Source: Chitinophaga cymbidii
GTDB lineage: Bacteria; Bacteroidota; Bacteroidia; Chitinophagales; Chitinophagaceae
Direction: 5' to 3'
Assembly: GCF_007992715.1 (NCBI RefSeq)
Contig: NZ_BKAU01000001.1
Coordinates: 62,001 to 126,000 of the forward strand
DNA length: 64,000 nt
The number at the start of each line of letters is the position of its first letter. Position 1 is the stretch's first letter. Below, one piece after another: positions 31,561-61,262 of this stretch. The notes beneath the pieces are model-generated. The model saw only the letters and a list, made by a program, of their open reading frames with translations, searched no databases and was not told the DNA's origin. The translations under genes and the position numbers were made by a program.

Positions 31561-31593
31561 TTACCCACATTCTTTATCCACACCTGTGGGGAA
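31561..31593. promoter_or_regulatory. Cluster of three DnaA-box-like 9-mers upstream of nrdBA
   Basis: TTATCCACA at 31574-31582 is a perfect match to the classic DnaA box TTATNCACA. TTACCCACA at 31561-31569 is one base off, and TTCCCCACA on the opposite strand (31593-31585) is two off. The three lie within 33 bases, just upstream of the nrd -7 box. DnaA boxes control nrdAB in Escherichia coli; the role here is inferred. Confidence 0.55.
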
Positions 31594-31622
31594 CTTACAT
31601 TTTTTTCGCCTGACGTGATCGT

Positions 31623-31630
31623 TACATTTG
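31623..31630 (+). promoter_or_regulatory. -7 box (TACATTTG) of the nrdBA promoter
   Basis: TACATTTG fits TAnnTTTG and lies about 19 bases before the 5' end of the cobalamin aptamer, the right place for transcription to begin just ahead of it. A T-run at 31600-31606 takes the place of a clear -33 TTTG. Confidence 0.6.
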
Positions 31631-31648
31631 CATCAAGTTCTTGACTCC

Positions 31649-31836
31649 GTTGTTCTGGCTTCTTTTCCGATGTAAACGGAATATGAATTAATAGGGAATC
31701 GTGTGGAATTCACGAGCAGACGCGCTACTGTGATCCCCTATCTTTTAAGATGCCGGACTCTTCTAACGCCACTGCTCCTCCGGGAGCGGGAAGGCCCGCC
31801 CGGCAAGGGAAAGCCAGGAGACCTGCCAGCAACAAC
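31649..31836 (+). promoter_or_regulatory. Cobalamin (B12) riboswitch
   Basis: The aptamer core is clear: AATAGGGAA at 31690-31698, the CGCGCTACTGTGA segment at 31721-31733, GGGAAGGCCCGCC-type stem near 31786, and the B12 box GCCAGGAGACCTGCC at 31813-31827. The closing stem pairs TTGTTCTGGC (31650-31659) with GCCAGCAACAA (31826-31836). It precedes a B12-independent ribonucleotide reductase operon, an arrangement known from other bacteria where adenosylcobalamin shuts off the B12-independent enzyme. Confidence 0.9.
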
Positions 31837-31984
31837 GTAACTGTCAAAACCTTCGCGACTAAGGTTATGGCGAAAGTGACCCTCACCGTATCACTCATGG
31901 AAAAGTAATCTTCCGTCCGACCGCGTCCCCGACATTGTGAACTAATGGATGGTTCCATCCTGCTAACCATATAAAAACTTTTGT
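31837..31984 (+). other. Expression platform between B12 aptamer and nrdB
   Basis: CCTT/AAGG (31850-31864) may be the hairpin that kisses the aptamer. Two mutually exclusive hairpins lie before the start: GGATG-GTTC-CATCC (31947-31960) and ATGGTT...AACCAT (31949-31970). No T-run follows either, so control of translation is more likely than termination. Confidence 0.5.
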
Positions 31985-32959
31985 ATGAGTAACGAGAATG
32001 AGATTTTATTAAAGGAGAACAAAGACAGGTTCGTGCTGCTGCCGATCAATTACCCCAAGCTGTGGGAACATTACAAAAGGCATGAAGCGAGCTTCTGGAC
32101 GGCGGAAGAGATCGACCTTTCCGGCGACCTGAAAGACTGGGCCGGCATGACGGACGGCGAGCGTCACTTCATTTCGCATGTACTGGCGTTTTTTGCGGCC
32201 TCCGATGGCATCGTGAACGAGAACCTGGCGGTGAACTTCATGAGCGAAGTGCAGATACCCGAAGCGCGCTGCTTCTATGGTTTCCAGATCATGATGGAGA
32301 ACATTCACTCCGAAACCTACGCCCTGCTGATCGACACCTACGTAAAAGACCCCGCCGAGAAAGATCGCCTGTTCCACGCCATTGAAACAGTGCCGGCCGT
32401 GAAAAAGAAAGCGGAATGGGCTTTACGCTGGATCGAGAACGGCACCTTCGCGCAACGTCTTGTAGCATTTGCGGCGGTGGAAGGCATCTTCTTCAGCGGC
32501 AGCTTCTGCTCTATCTTCTGGCTGAAAAAACGCGGCCTCATGCCCGGCCTCACCTTCTCTAACGAGCTGATCAGCCGCGATGAGGGCCTGCATTGCGAAT
32601 TTGCCTGCGAACTGTACCGCATGCTCAACGGCAAGCTCTCCGAAACAGAAGTGCACGAGATCATCACAGACGCCGTGAAGATCGAAAAGGAATTTATCAC
32701 GGACGCGCTGCCCGCCGCACTGATAGGCATGAACAGCGAACTGATGAAACAGTATATCGAGTTCGTGGCGGACAGATGGATATCCGAACTGGGTTACAAG
32801 AAAGTATACAACGCCGCCAACCCCTTCGATTTCATGGAAATGATCTCCCTGCAGGGCAAGACCAACTTCTTCGAAAAACGTGTGGGCGATTACCAGAAAG
32901 CAGGCGTCATGGGCAACAAGGAAGGCAGCAACACCTTCAGCCTCGACGAAGATTTTTAA
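31985..32959 (+). CDS. nrdB: Class I ribonucleotide reductase, radical-bearing beta subunit
   Basis: NrdB makes and holds the stable radical that starts reduction of ribonucleotides. The 324-residue protein is close in style to eukaryotic R2 ([44 protein letters not shown]). All di-iron ligands are visible: Asp44, Glu105, His108, Glu166, Glu200 and His203, and Tyr112 is in place as the tyrosyl radical, so it looks like a normal tyrosyl-radical, oxygen-dependent enzyme. The C-terminal tail NTFSLDEDF is the usual docking peptide for NrdA. It is preceded by the B12 riboswitch and followed after 62 bases by nrdA. Confidence 0.96.
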
Positions 32960-33021: not shown

Positions 33022-35397
33022 ATGTTCGTTATAAAAAGAGACGGAAGAAAGGAATCTGTCAAATTTGACAAGATCACGGCAAGGGTAGAGAAACTGTGTT
33101 ATGGCCTGGCGCCTGATTATGTGGACTCAATAGATGTAGCGAAGAAAGTGATCCAGGGACTGTACGACGGCGTGACCACCACCGAGCTGGACAACCTGGC
33201 TGCGGAAACCGCCGCGTCCCTCACCACCAAACATCCTGACTATGCACAGCTGGCTTCCCGCATCGCGGTGAGCAACCTGCACAAGAATACCGTGAAGTCG
33301 TTTTCCAAAACGATGAAGAAGCTGTATGAATACATCGATCCGAAAACCGGCAAACCCGCCGGCCTGCTGAGCGATGAAATATGGGATATCATCCGCAAGA
33401 ACGCGGACATCCTGGATTCTACCATCATCTACGACCGCGACTTCGCATTCGATTACTTCGGCTTCAAAACGCTGGAACGCTCTTACCTCCTGAAAGTGGA
33501 CGGCAAGATCGCCGAACGCCCGCAGCATATGTTCATGCGCGTGGCCGTAGGCATCCACAAGGAAGATATCGACTCCGCCATCAAAACATACAACCTGATG
33601 AGCGAGCGCTGGTTCACGCATGCCACGCCTACCCTCTTCAACGCGGGTACGCCGAAGCCGCAGATGAGCAGCTGCTTCCTCCTCACCATGCAGGGCGACA
33701 GCATCGACGGCATCTACGATACCCTGAAGCAGACCGCGAAGATCTCCCAGAGCGCAGGCGGCATTGGCCTGAGCATTCATAATATCCGTGCAACCGGTTC
33801 CTACATCAGCGGCACCAACGGCACATCCAACGGCATCATCCCCATGCTGCGCGTGTTCAACGACACGGCGCGTTATGTGGACCAGGGCGGCGGCAAACGC
33901 AAAGGCGCTTTCGCCATCTACCTGGAGCCCTGGCACGCCGATGTGTTCGAATTCCTGGACCTCCGCAAGAACCACGGCAAGGAAGAACTTCGCGCCCGCG
34001 ACCTGTTCTACGCCCTCTGGATGCCGGACCTGTTCATGAAGCGCGTGGAAGCCAACGGCGAATGGAGCCTGTTCTGTCCGCATGAAGCACCCGGACTGGC
34101 CGACTGCTGGGGTGAAGAATTTGAAAAGCTGTATGAGCAATACGAAAAGGAAAACCGCGCCCGCAAAACCGTGAAGGCGCAGGACCTCTGGTTCGCCATC
34201 CTGGACGCGCAGATCGAAACCGGTACGCCGTACCTGCTGTACAAGGATTCCGCCAACCGCAAATCCAACCAGCAGAACCTCGGCACCATCAAAAGTTCCA
34301 ACCTCTGCACAGAGATCATTGAATATACCTCTCCCGAAGAAGTGGCCGTATGTAACCTCGCGTCACTGGCGCTGCCCCGCTTCGTGATCGACGGTAAATT
34401 CGATCATCAGAAACTCTACGAGGTAACCTACCAGGCTACGCTCAACCTGAACAAGATCATTGACGAGAACTACTACCCGGTAGAAGAAGCCCGCCGCTCC
34501 AACCTGCGCCACCGCCCGATCGGCCTCGGCGTACAGGGCCTGGCCGATGCGTTCTTCCTGCTGCGTTATCCATTCGAAAGCGAACAGGCGCAGACCCTGA
34601 ACAAGGAGATCTTCGAAACGATCTACTTCGCTTCCCTGACCGCTTCCAAAGACCTCGCGAAGAAAGACGGGTACTACGAGTCATACCCCGGTTCTCCCGC
34701 TTCCAAAGGCATCCTGCAATATGATATGTGGGGCGTAACGCCGTCAGAGCGCTGGGACTGGACAGGACTGAAAGGCGAGATCAAAGAGCACGGCATCCGC
34801 AACTCCCTGCTGCTGGCGCCGATGCCCACCGCATCTACTTCCCAGATCCTCGGCAACAACGAATGCTTTGAGCCGTACACCTCCAACATCTACACCCGCC
34901 GCGTACTGAGCGGTGAGTTCGTGGTGGTGAACAAGCACCTGCTGAAAGACCTCGTGGAGCTGGGCCTGTGGGACAATGACATGAAGAACAAGATCATCGC
35001 CGCCAACGGCTCCATCCAGCAGATACCGGAAATTCCTTCCAACATCAAGGAACTCTACAAAACTGTGTGGGAGATCAAGCAGCGCACGATCATCGATATG
35101 GCGGCAGACCGCGGCGCGTACATCTGCCAGTCACAGTCACTCAACCTGTTCGTGGACACGCCGTCCGCTTCCAAACTTACTTCCATGCACTTCTACGCCT
35201 GGAAGAAAGGGCTGAAGACCGGCATGTACTACCTGCGTACACAGGCAGCGACCCAGGCCGTTCAGTTCACCGTGGAAAAACAGGGCGGGCAGAACATGGT
35301 GCCGGTGGTAGCTCCCGCGGAAGGCACGCTGGAACTTGCGGTTCCGGAAGGCGCCGTGTGCACCATGGAAGAAGGTTGTGTAACCTGCAGCGCATAA
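33022..35397 (+). CDS. nrdA: Class I ribonucleotide reductase, catalytic alpha subunit
   Basis: NrdA reduces ribonucleoside diphosphates to deoxy forms. The 791-residue protein starts with an ATP-cone domain ([25 protein letters not shown], residues 1-95), which gives dATP on/off control. The barrel holds the active-site cysteines in [20 protein letters not shown] and [13 protein letters not shown], and the radical-path motif [26 protein letters not shown]. The C-terminal tail [12 protein letters not shown] carries the cysteine pair reduced by thioredoxin. It shares the nrdB leader with its B12 riboswitch and is followed by a terminator. Confidence 0.97.
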
Positions 35398-61095: not shown

Positions 61096-61114
61096 CGCAC
61101 AGTTCTTAAACATT

Positions 61115-61226
61115 ACTTATCCAGAAAGGCAGAGGGTACTGGCCCTGCGAAGCCTTAGCAACCTATTCCGCCACCGGCGGAAAAAAGGTGCTAATTCCGG
61201 CCTCCGGCAACGGGGGAAAGATAAGT
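61115..61226 (+). promoter_or_regulatory. SAM-I (S-box) riboswitch
   Basis: The aptamer has all conserved pieces: CTTATC opening strand at 61116, AGAGGG and CTGGCCCTGCGAAGCC, TTAGCAACCT, GGTGCTAATTCC, and GAAAGATAAG closing strand ending at 61225. S-adenosylmethionine binding would switch off the methionine genes below. Confidence 0.95.
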
Positions 61227-61262
61227 TGGCAGAGATTTTTACTACAGCATCATATTGCATAG

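Follow-up and report, generated by a model that had tools for sequence, protein, structure and literature searches.

An inverted DnaA-box-like pair before class I and class II ribonucleotide reductase genes in Chitinophaga, with a B12 riboswitch on one of the two

Main finding

We analysed a 64-kb window of Chitinophaga cymbidii DNA (the window being the whole stretch under analysis) and found that its class I ribonucleotide reductase operon, nrdBA, is preceded by an inverted pair of DnaA-box-like arms. The first-pass annotation had overlooked that this inverted pair is the conserved unit, that it stands at a fixed distance from the promoter -7 box and that it is also found at the class II gene nrdJ. 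Judged by its sequence, this piece of regulation is real and unusually well conserved. The B12 riboswitch adds a layer of its own, at nrdBA only. We consider it probable that reductase genes class-wide are governed by an element that was ancestrally a 20-bp tandem repeat, lying about 39 bp ahead of the -7 box and read by DnaA or a new regulator, the members tested being without NrdR; the Chitinophaga family would carry an inverted double DnaA box before both reductase classes and combine replication initiation and B12 at nrdBA.

The putative mechanism outlined below, an inverted double DnaA box common to two reductase classes with a B12 riboswitch added on one, is likely in its broad lines. 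In the open-access literature (most subscription journals lie outside it), no paper describing the operator in Bacteroidetes was found among the matches listed, and none on how NrdR-less Bacteroidota set reductase transcription. The shared operator is a precise place to look for the regulator, and through it a direct link between the start of replication, dNTP supply and vitamin B12 could be put to the test at a single promoter. The arrangement suggests that DNA precursor synthesis responds to replication as well as to vitamin supply.

Results

Operator, promoter and aptamer ahead of nrdBA

Read 5' to 3', the leader holds three DnaA-box-like 9-mers (31561-31593), a -7 box, a cobalamin aptamer and then nrdB-nrdA. 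The first-pass annotation had given this same order; pattern scans, Rfam and Pfam bore out both order and positions, with all three 9-mers in place and one of them perfect. The perfect box TTATCCACA (31574-31582, + strand) is the left arm of the core operator (31574-31593), an inverted pair TTATCCACA-cc-TGTGGGGAA with a 2-bp spacer. The right arm (31585-31593, - strand) reads TTCCCCACA, or TGTGGGGAA on the + strand, and has 2 mismatches; the pattern scan was limited to 1 mismatch, hence this arm was taken from the sequence itself. The third, upstream 9-mer TTACCCACA (31561-31569, + strand) has 1 mismatch and was identified, like the left arm, both by reading the sequence and by the scan. The right arm begins 38 bp upstream of the -7 box TACATTTG (31623-31630, + strand), which is conserved in the family alignment described below and is of the Bacteroidota type (consensus TAnnTTTG). 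The sequence TTACATTT was found twice, 27 bp apart (31595-31602 and 31622-31629), its second copy overlapping the -7 box.

The aptamer (31639-31844, + strand) belongs to Rfam RF00174, covering model positions 1-189, the full length, with 89 bits against a gathering score of 31.5 (E 1.2e-20). Three further cobalamin aptamers were found in the genome (L001, L002, L004), and the same Rfam scan returned a SAM riboswitch at 61114-61227 of the window (RF00162, 83.1 bits). Downstream lie nrdB, the class I small subunit (31985-32959, + strand; PF00268, E 8.6e-118), and nrdA, the large subunit with an ATP-cone (33022-35397, + strand; PF02867, PF00317 and PF03477; TIGR02506, 742 bits). The NrdB translation contains the radical-site pattern ENIHSETY, in agreement with the radical ligands reported at first pass; the ligand residues are assigned by analogy with E. 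coli NrdB. The named organisms closest by nrdB are Chitinophaga.

The element in relatives

TTATCCACA with at most 1 mismatch occurred 19 times in the window where 13.4 were expected (12 of 100 shuffles reached 19), and TAnnTTTG 31 times against 37 expected; with counts this near chance, the single boxes and the -7 box carry no significance by themselves. What exceeds chance is that relatives keep these sites at a fixed distance from each other, and that they recur before nrdJ. We assembled 110 nrdB loci, our own genome included, and compared 106 after dropping 4 duplicate leaders. The combined score was passed by 71 of the 106, with an inverted partner in 45 and a tandem partner in 26; the 9-mers, whose conservation upstream of nrdB was a check proposed at first pass, are thus kept in relatives.

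The inverted form was aligned from 33 of the 45 leaders (alignment A1), leaving out 2 near-duplicates and 10 weak or Sphingobacteria-type rows. Rows of A1 are mostly Chitinophagaceae, a few being named only to higher rank. In Chitinophagaceae and their close kin, an inverted left arm TTWTCCACA stands 2 or 3 bp from the right arm (2 bp in 15/33, 3 bp in 18/33; these were the two spacers scored). The left arms have C at box position 6 in 31/33 rows and fit YTWTNCACA in 25/33. Right arms fit the strict TTWTNCACA in 4/33, which counts against a reading as DnaA boxes. A weaker counterpart of the third box, ending TCACA and placed 4 bp before the left arm, was present in L010, L039 and L041.

A sequence profile built from A1 (R1) matched 20 of 30 leaders (L008-L037) at E <=1e-5, matches that are not independent because many of the 20 were in its training set. 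The match in L035 fell on the strand opposite the gene; its coding strand reads, by inspection, TTATGCACA-cc-TGTGGATAG. Inspection also revealed a weaker form in eight more leaders (L011, L012 via its duplicate L043, L017, L028 and L030-L033), whose left arm reads TTTTCAACA or CTTTCAACA and whose right arm reads GTKnATAA, and no operator in L036. A family subclade has TTTTCAACA as its left arm (8/30 leaders, by inspection), again against DnaA.

In Pedobacter, Mucilaginibacter and kin the partner is instead a same-orientation copy 20 bp upstream (alignment A2, holding 25 of the 26 leaders that passed as tandem), and this is likewise the case in distant members of the class, which we take to be Bacteroidia. 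We took 60 distant genomes, chosen for family spread, from 115 with a class-wide match (some of these weak and distant). The strict motif at an exact 20-bp tandem spacing occurred in 12/60 leaders (mean in shuffles, 0.01), and tandem pairs with a relaxed score >=18 in 37/60, against 15 of 1200 shuffled leaders. The period of these 37 elements was 20 bp in 31 and 21 bp in 6. No box with C at position 6, the base that the E. coli consensus TTWTNCACA has there, was present in 17 of the 37, a further point against DnaA.

The distance to the promoter was equally constrained. A -7 box lay within 700 bases in 84/106 nrdB leaders, and the distance to it from the start of the half-site TGT[TG] was 38 bp in 39 leaders and 39 bp in 32; other offsets averaged 1.4, but 59 bp stood out with 21. 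A stricter half-site was found 38 or 39 bp before 61 of 104 -7-like sites in nrdB leaders and before none of 1099 such sites taken as controls from other parts of loci L038-L117. This offset control rules out a general promoter feature. The lack of enrichment of single boxes in the window is what chance would give, but neither chance nor a promoter feature without a regulator of its own would be expected to give an arm distance seen at 0/1099 control sites, the exact tandem spacing in distant leaders and a recurrence at nrdJ, and we hold such an origin of the boxes to be very improbable.

The same element before nrdJ

The class II reductase that the first-pass annotation had proposed to look for is present in the genome: nrdJ scored 479.6 bits with TIGR02504, or 583.5 bits with its neighbour in frame, and matched PF08471 (Ribonuc_red_2_N). 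Upstream of it we found TTATGCACA-cgc-TGTGGATAA, whose right arm precedes TATTTTAG by exactly 38 bp. The full arrangement, both arms with a -7-like box at 38/39 bp, occurred in 29 of 30 family nrdJ loci (the exception was L137), a count of the best-scoring arrangement per locus with spacers of 0-4 bp allowed and without a shuffle control; spacers of 2, 3 and 4 bp were the ones that occurred. With a stricter -7 box, the right arm was at 38/39 bp in 24/30 loci, other offsets averaging 0.02. A profile of the nrdB promoter, with nrdJ absent from its training, gave coding-strand matches to the nrdJ promoter in 19/30 loci (E <=0.01). Since nrdJ bears the same element as nrdBA, replication-linked control, if real, covers both reductases.

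The B12 riboswitch

Of the nrdB leaders of 29 relatives (L009-L037), 22 hold a cobalamin aptamer according to Rfam, in addition to the one in the window. NrdJ was present in all 23 genomes with a riboswitch leader and in 3 of the 7 without (Fisher P 0.0013, uncorrected for kinship). The three were G177, G153 and G166; the other four (G006, G161, G039, G111) gave a cross-match to nrdA alone. Across these 30 leaders the riboswitch is confined to NrdJ genomes, in line with the earlier proposal that such a riboswitch controls a B12-independent reductase where a class II enzyme is available as well. The operator persisted in leaders without a riboswitch (L010, L015, L027, L037), so that the two layers are separable.

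Once transcription has started, the aptamer in the nrdBA leader would add a further, independent level of control: under ample B12, nrdBA would be shut off, because NrdJ can do the work, and with B12 scarce nrdBA would be made. Between the aptamer and nrdB (31845-31984), the + (coding) strand showed no terminator-like site. In the same stretch the nrdB start codon is predicted to pair with an upstream segment, weakly (z -1.36). Among 23 leaders, at least one start-codon base was paired in 15 and all three in 4, a comparison without a control in which the start is the first aligned residue and not always the start codon. This weak predicted pairing, mixed in relatives, hints that the riboswitch may act on translation.

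Boxes at predicted replication origins

A probable replication origin of the genome was located at C1:1776090-1776575 (L127), where seven DnaA boxes fall within ~490 bases; it came from a box-cluster search in which 100 of 141 places were listed. This candidate has a nadA-like gene (by eye) on one side and a SurA/PpiD-like gene on the other, and is far from dnaA, as is common for oriC in Bacteroidetes according to PMC4755523. A SurA/PpiD-like gene also flanks a box cluster in G162. The 9-mers of the nrd operator recur in our own candidate, TTACCCACA among them, which speaks for DnaA.

Close inverted pairs were found at 4 of 23 CCAC sites in the two predicted oriC candidates against 15 of 910 in the background (P 5e-4), two in our own and two in that of G162. 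The G162 candidate had been found through its match to the operator profile, a selection bias; setting aside the pair that led to it left 3/22 sites (P 0.005), and our own genome alone gave 2/9 (P 0.009). No double box was found upstream of our own dnaA (L133), which counts against DnaA. By inspection without a chance control, that region has TTTTGCACA ~470 bp before the gene and, within ~150 bp of it, a pair of half-sites (TTTTCAACA and TTATAAACA) whose position 6 is A. In the search for an origin in a distant relative, matches to TTATCCACA listed for 6 genomes (no rows for G350, part of those for G349) included two close pairs in G247, both inside open reading frames. The GC skew of G316, from 20 samples, was too noisy for placing an origin.

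Candidate binders of the operator

We slightly favour the reading in which 31574-31593 is an inverted double DnaA box, DnaA setting both reductases and B12 tuning nrdBA alone; DnaA as the binder, and the sign of regulation, are what we infer from the sequence. DnaA would bind the good box and its degenerate partner, which lie 2 bp from each other shortly before the nrdBA promoter. Probably two DnaA molecules, helped by the third box at 31561, would set the firing rate of this promoter. With nrdJ preceded by a like arrangement, the B12-dependent reductase would come under the same control, and dNTP supply by either enzyme would thereby be tied to the replication initiator. In E. coli, a ChIP-seq study reports that DnaA prefers a good and a degenerate box 2 or 3 bp apart, nrdA and nrdD included (PMC11317965). 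The operator likewise pairs one box, TTATCCACA, with a degenerate one, TTCCCCACA, 2 bp away, and the 33-member alignment shows such pairing as well, though inverted where E. coli has a tandem. The DnaA of this genome keeps the recognition motif RDHTTVIH, close to the recognition-helix residues named in PMC5043019, which speaks for its binding. The same paper describes rare C-to-A changes at position 6 as tolerated in Epsilonproteobacteria, and degenerate partners at E. coli nrdD and datA have A at this position (PMC11317965).

With 17 of 37 tandem elements lacking a canonical-type box, a dedicated reductase regulator is a serious rival. The operator would then belong to a new protein, in place of NrdR across the class; the ancestral site would be the tandem TGTKnAWAACt with its 20-bp period, for which the Chitinophaga family would have swapped the distal site for an inverted one, whose resemblance to a DnaA box would be coincidence. 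The abundance of tandem pairs in distant leaders over shuffles, their period, the very fixed promoter distance, the lack of an NrdR match and the few targets (nrdBA and nrdJ below E 0.05 here, with 150 of 1327 candidates scored) all fit this. It is harder to square with the distal half-site, whose orientation and spacing differ by lineage with its place before the gene kept, a change that a rigid dimer would presumably not easily tolerate, and with a spacing that closely follows the rule for E. coli double boxes, the inverted pairs at the oriC candidates and a search of 14 genomes in which no ATP-cone regulator was found. Because there is evidence on both sides, we put DnaA at a little over one half and a dedicated regulator at somewhat under two fifths. 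NrdR itself was also considered, as its boxes too precede both reductase operons. However, its model TIGR00244 gave no match in the genome at E 0.001, yet matched 9 of 14 control genomes, and the ATP-cone was found in NrdA alone (judged by its place beside nrdB) in 13 of 14 genomes, G006 having one further ATP-cone protein of 709 residues. The operator also differs from the NrdR box in sequence. Its spacing differs too, most NrdR boxes being 15-16 bp apart according to PMC12051234. The absent match and the lack of another ATP-cone protein in our own genome rule NrdR out as the binder, and we give it a negligible probability.

Likeness to known systems

The closest parallel to the DnaA-based reading is E. 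coli nrdAB, whose control by DnaA is described in PMC8203912 and PMC11317965. There, as here, a good and a degenerate DnaA box lie a few bp apart upstream of the class I reductase promoter, and more than one reductase class is in the DnaA regulon (nrdA and nrdD; PMC11317965). The second target is class III nrdD in E. coli and class II nrdJ here. E. coli double boxes are tandem whereas those here are inverted, which argues against DnaA; the tandem form is confined to distant relatives, with a 20-bp period. Unlike at E. coli nrdAB, NrdR was not found here and a riboswitch lies downstream of the operator.

According to PMC4991794, citing Borovok 2006, the leader of Streptomyces nrdABS (class Ia) has a B12 riboswitch in a genome that also has NrdJ, and SenR, a response regulator, has its binding site close to the riboswitch and upstream of nrdA. 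Our locus is alike in its B12 aptamer in a class I leader, its NrdJ in the genome and its upstream control site; it differs in phylum, in an operator that is DnaA-box-like and shared with nrdJ, and in having no terminator-like site after the aptamer. The NrdR regulon resembles the present case in placing one operator type before both reductase operons, but differs in half-sites and spacing and in the NrdR match that is missing here.

Further sites in the family

The whole-genome profile search covered 20 family genomes, with 150 of 1327 first-look candidates scored, and its target list is therefore not exhaustive. Among those scored in our own genome, nrdBA (2e-9) and nrdJ (0.012) were the only sites at E <0.05. 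A palindrome scan for the regulon gave 39 sites at <=3 mismatches versus 16 for the reversed pattern; of the 15 examined together with their surroundings, nrdBA alone has a -7 box at the conserved distance. We inspected 24 other sites (23 distinct; L279 was left out of the counts, and L185 covers the site of L282), and 12 rows (11 distinct sites) showed no pattern.

Eight of the 24 lay before a phoH-like gene, in eight genomes (G127, G083, G002, G029, G162, G085, G071, G175), the gene identity being Pfam-confirmed in one and given by the look of the sequence in the remaining seven. The phoH-like loci with the inverted element were L179, L180, L185, L186, L187, L190, L274 and L276. Their promoter geometry may differ, since a TAACTTTG-like sequence directly follows the element in several. 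One site preceded a gene resembling a topoisomerase, judged by how its sequence looks, and one fell at an oriC candidate. G006, of the same genus and without NrdJ, has the operator and promoter a second time, as a strong match (E 4.8e-7) at C4:23549-23612 (L184, L277), without a clear gene directly downstream. Weak copies of the element account for two of the 24 sites, in our own genome at C9:124346 (L271) and in G106 at C1:3614456 (L281); both genomes belong to the Chitinophaga group, and in both the copy precedes the same tetratricopeptide-repeat gene, for which one of them gave Pfam matches.
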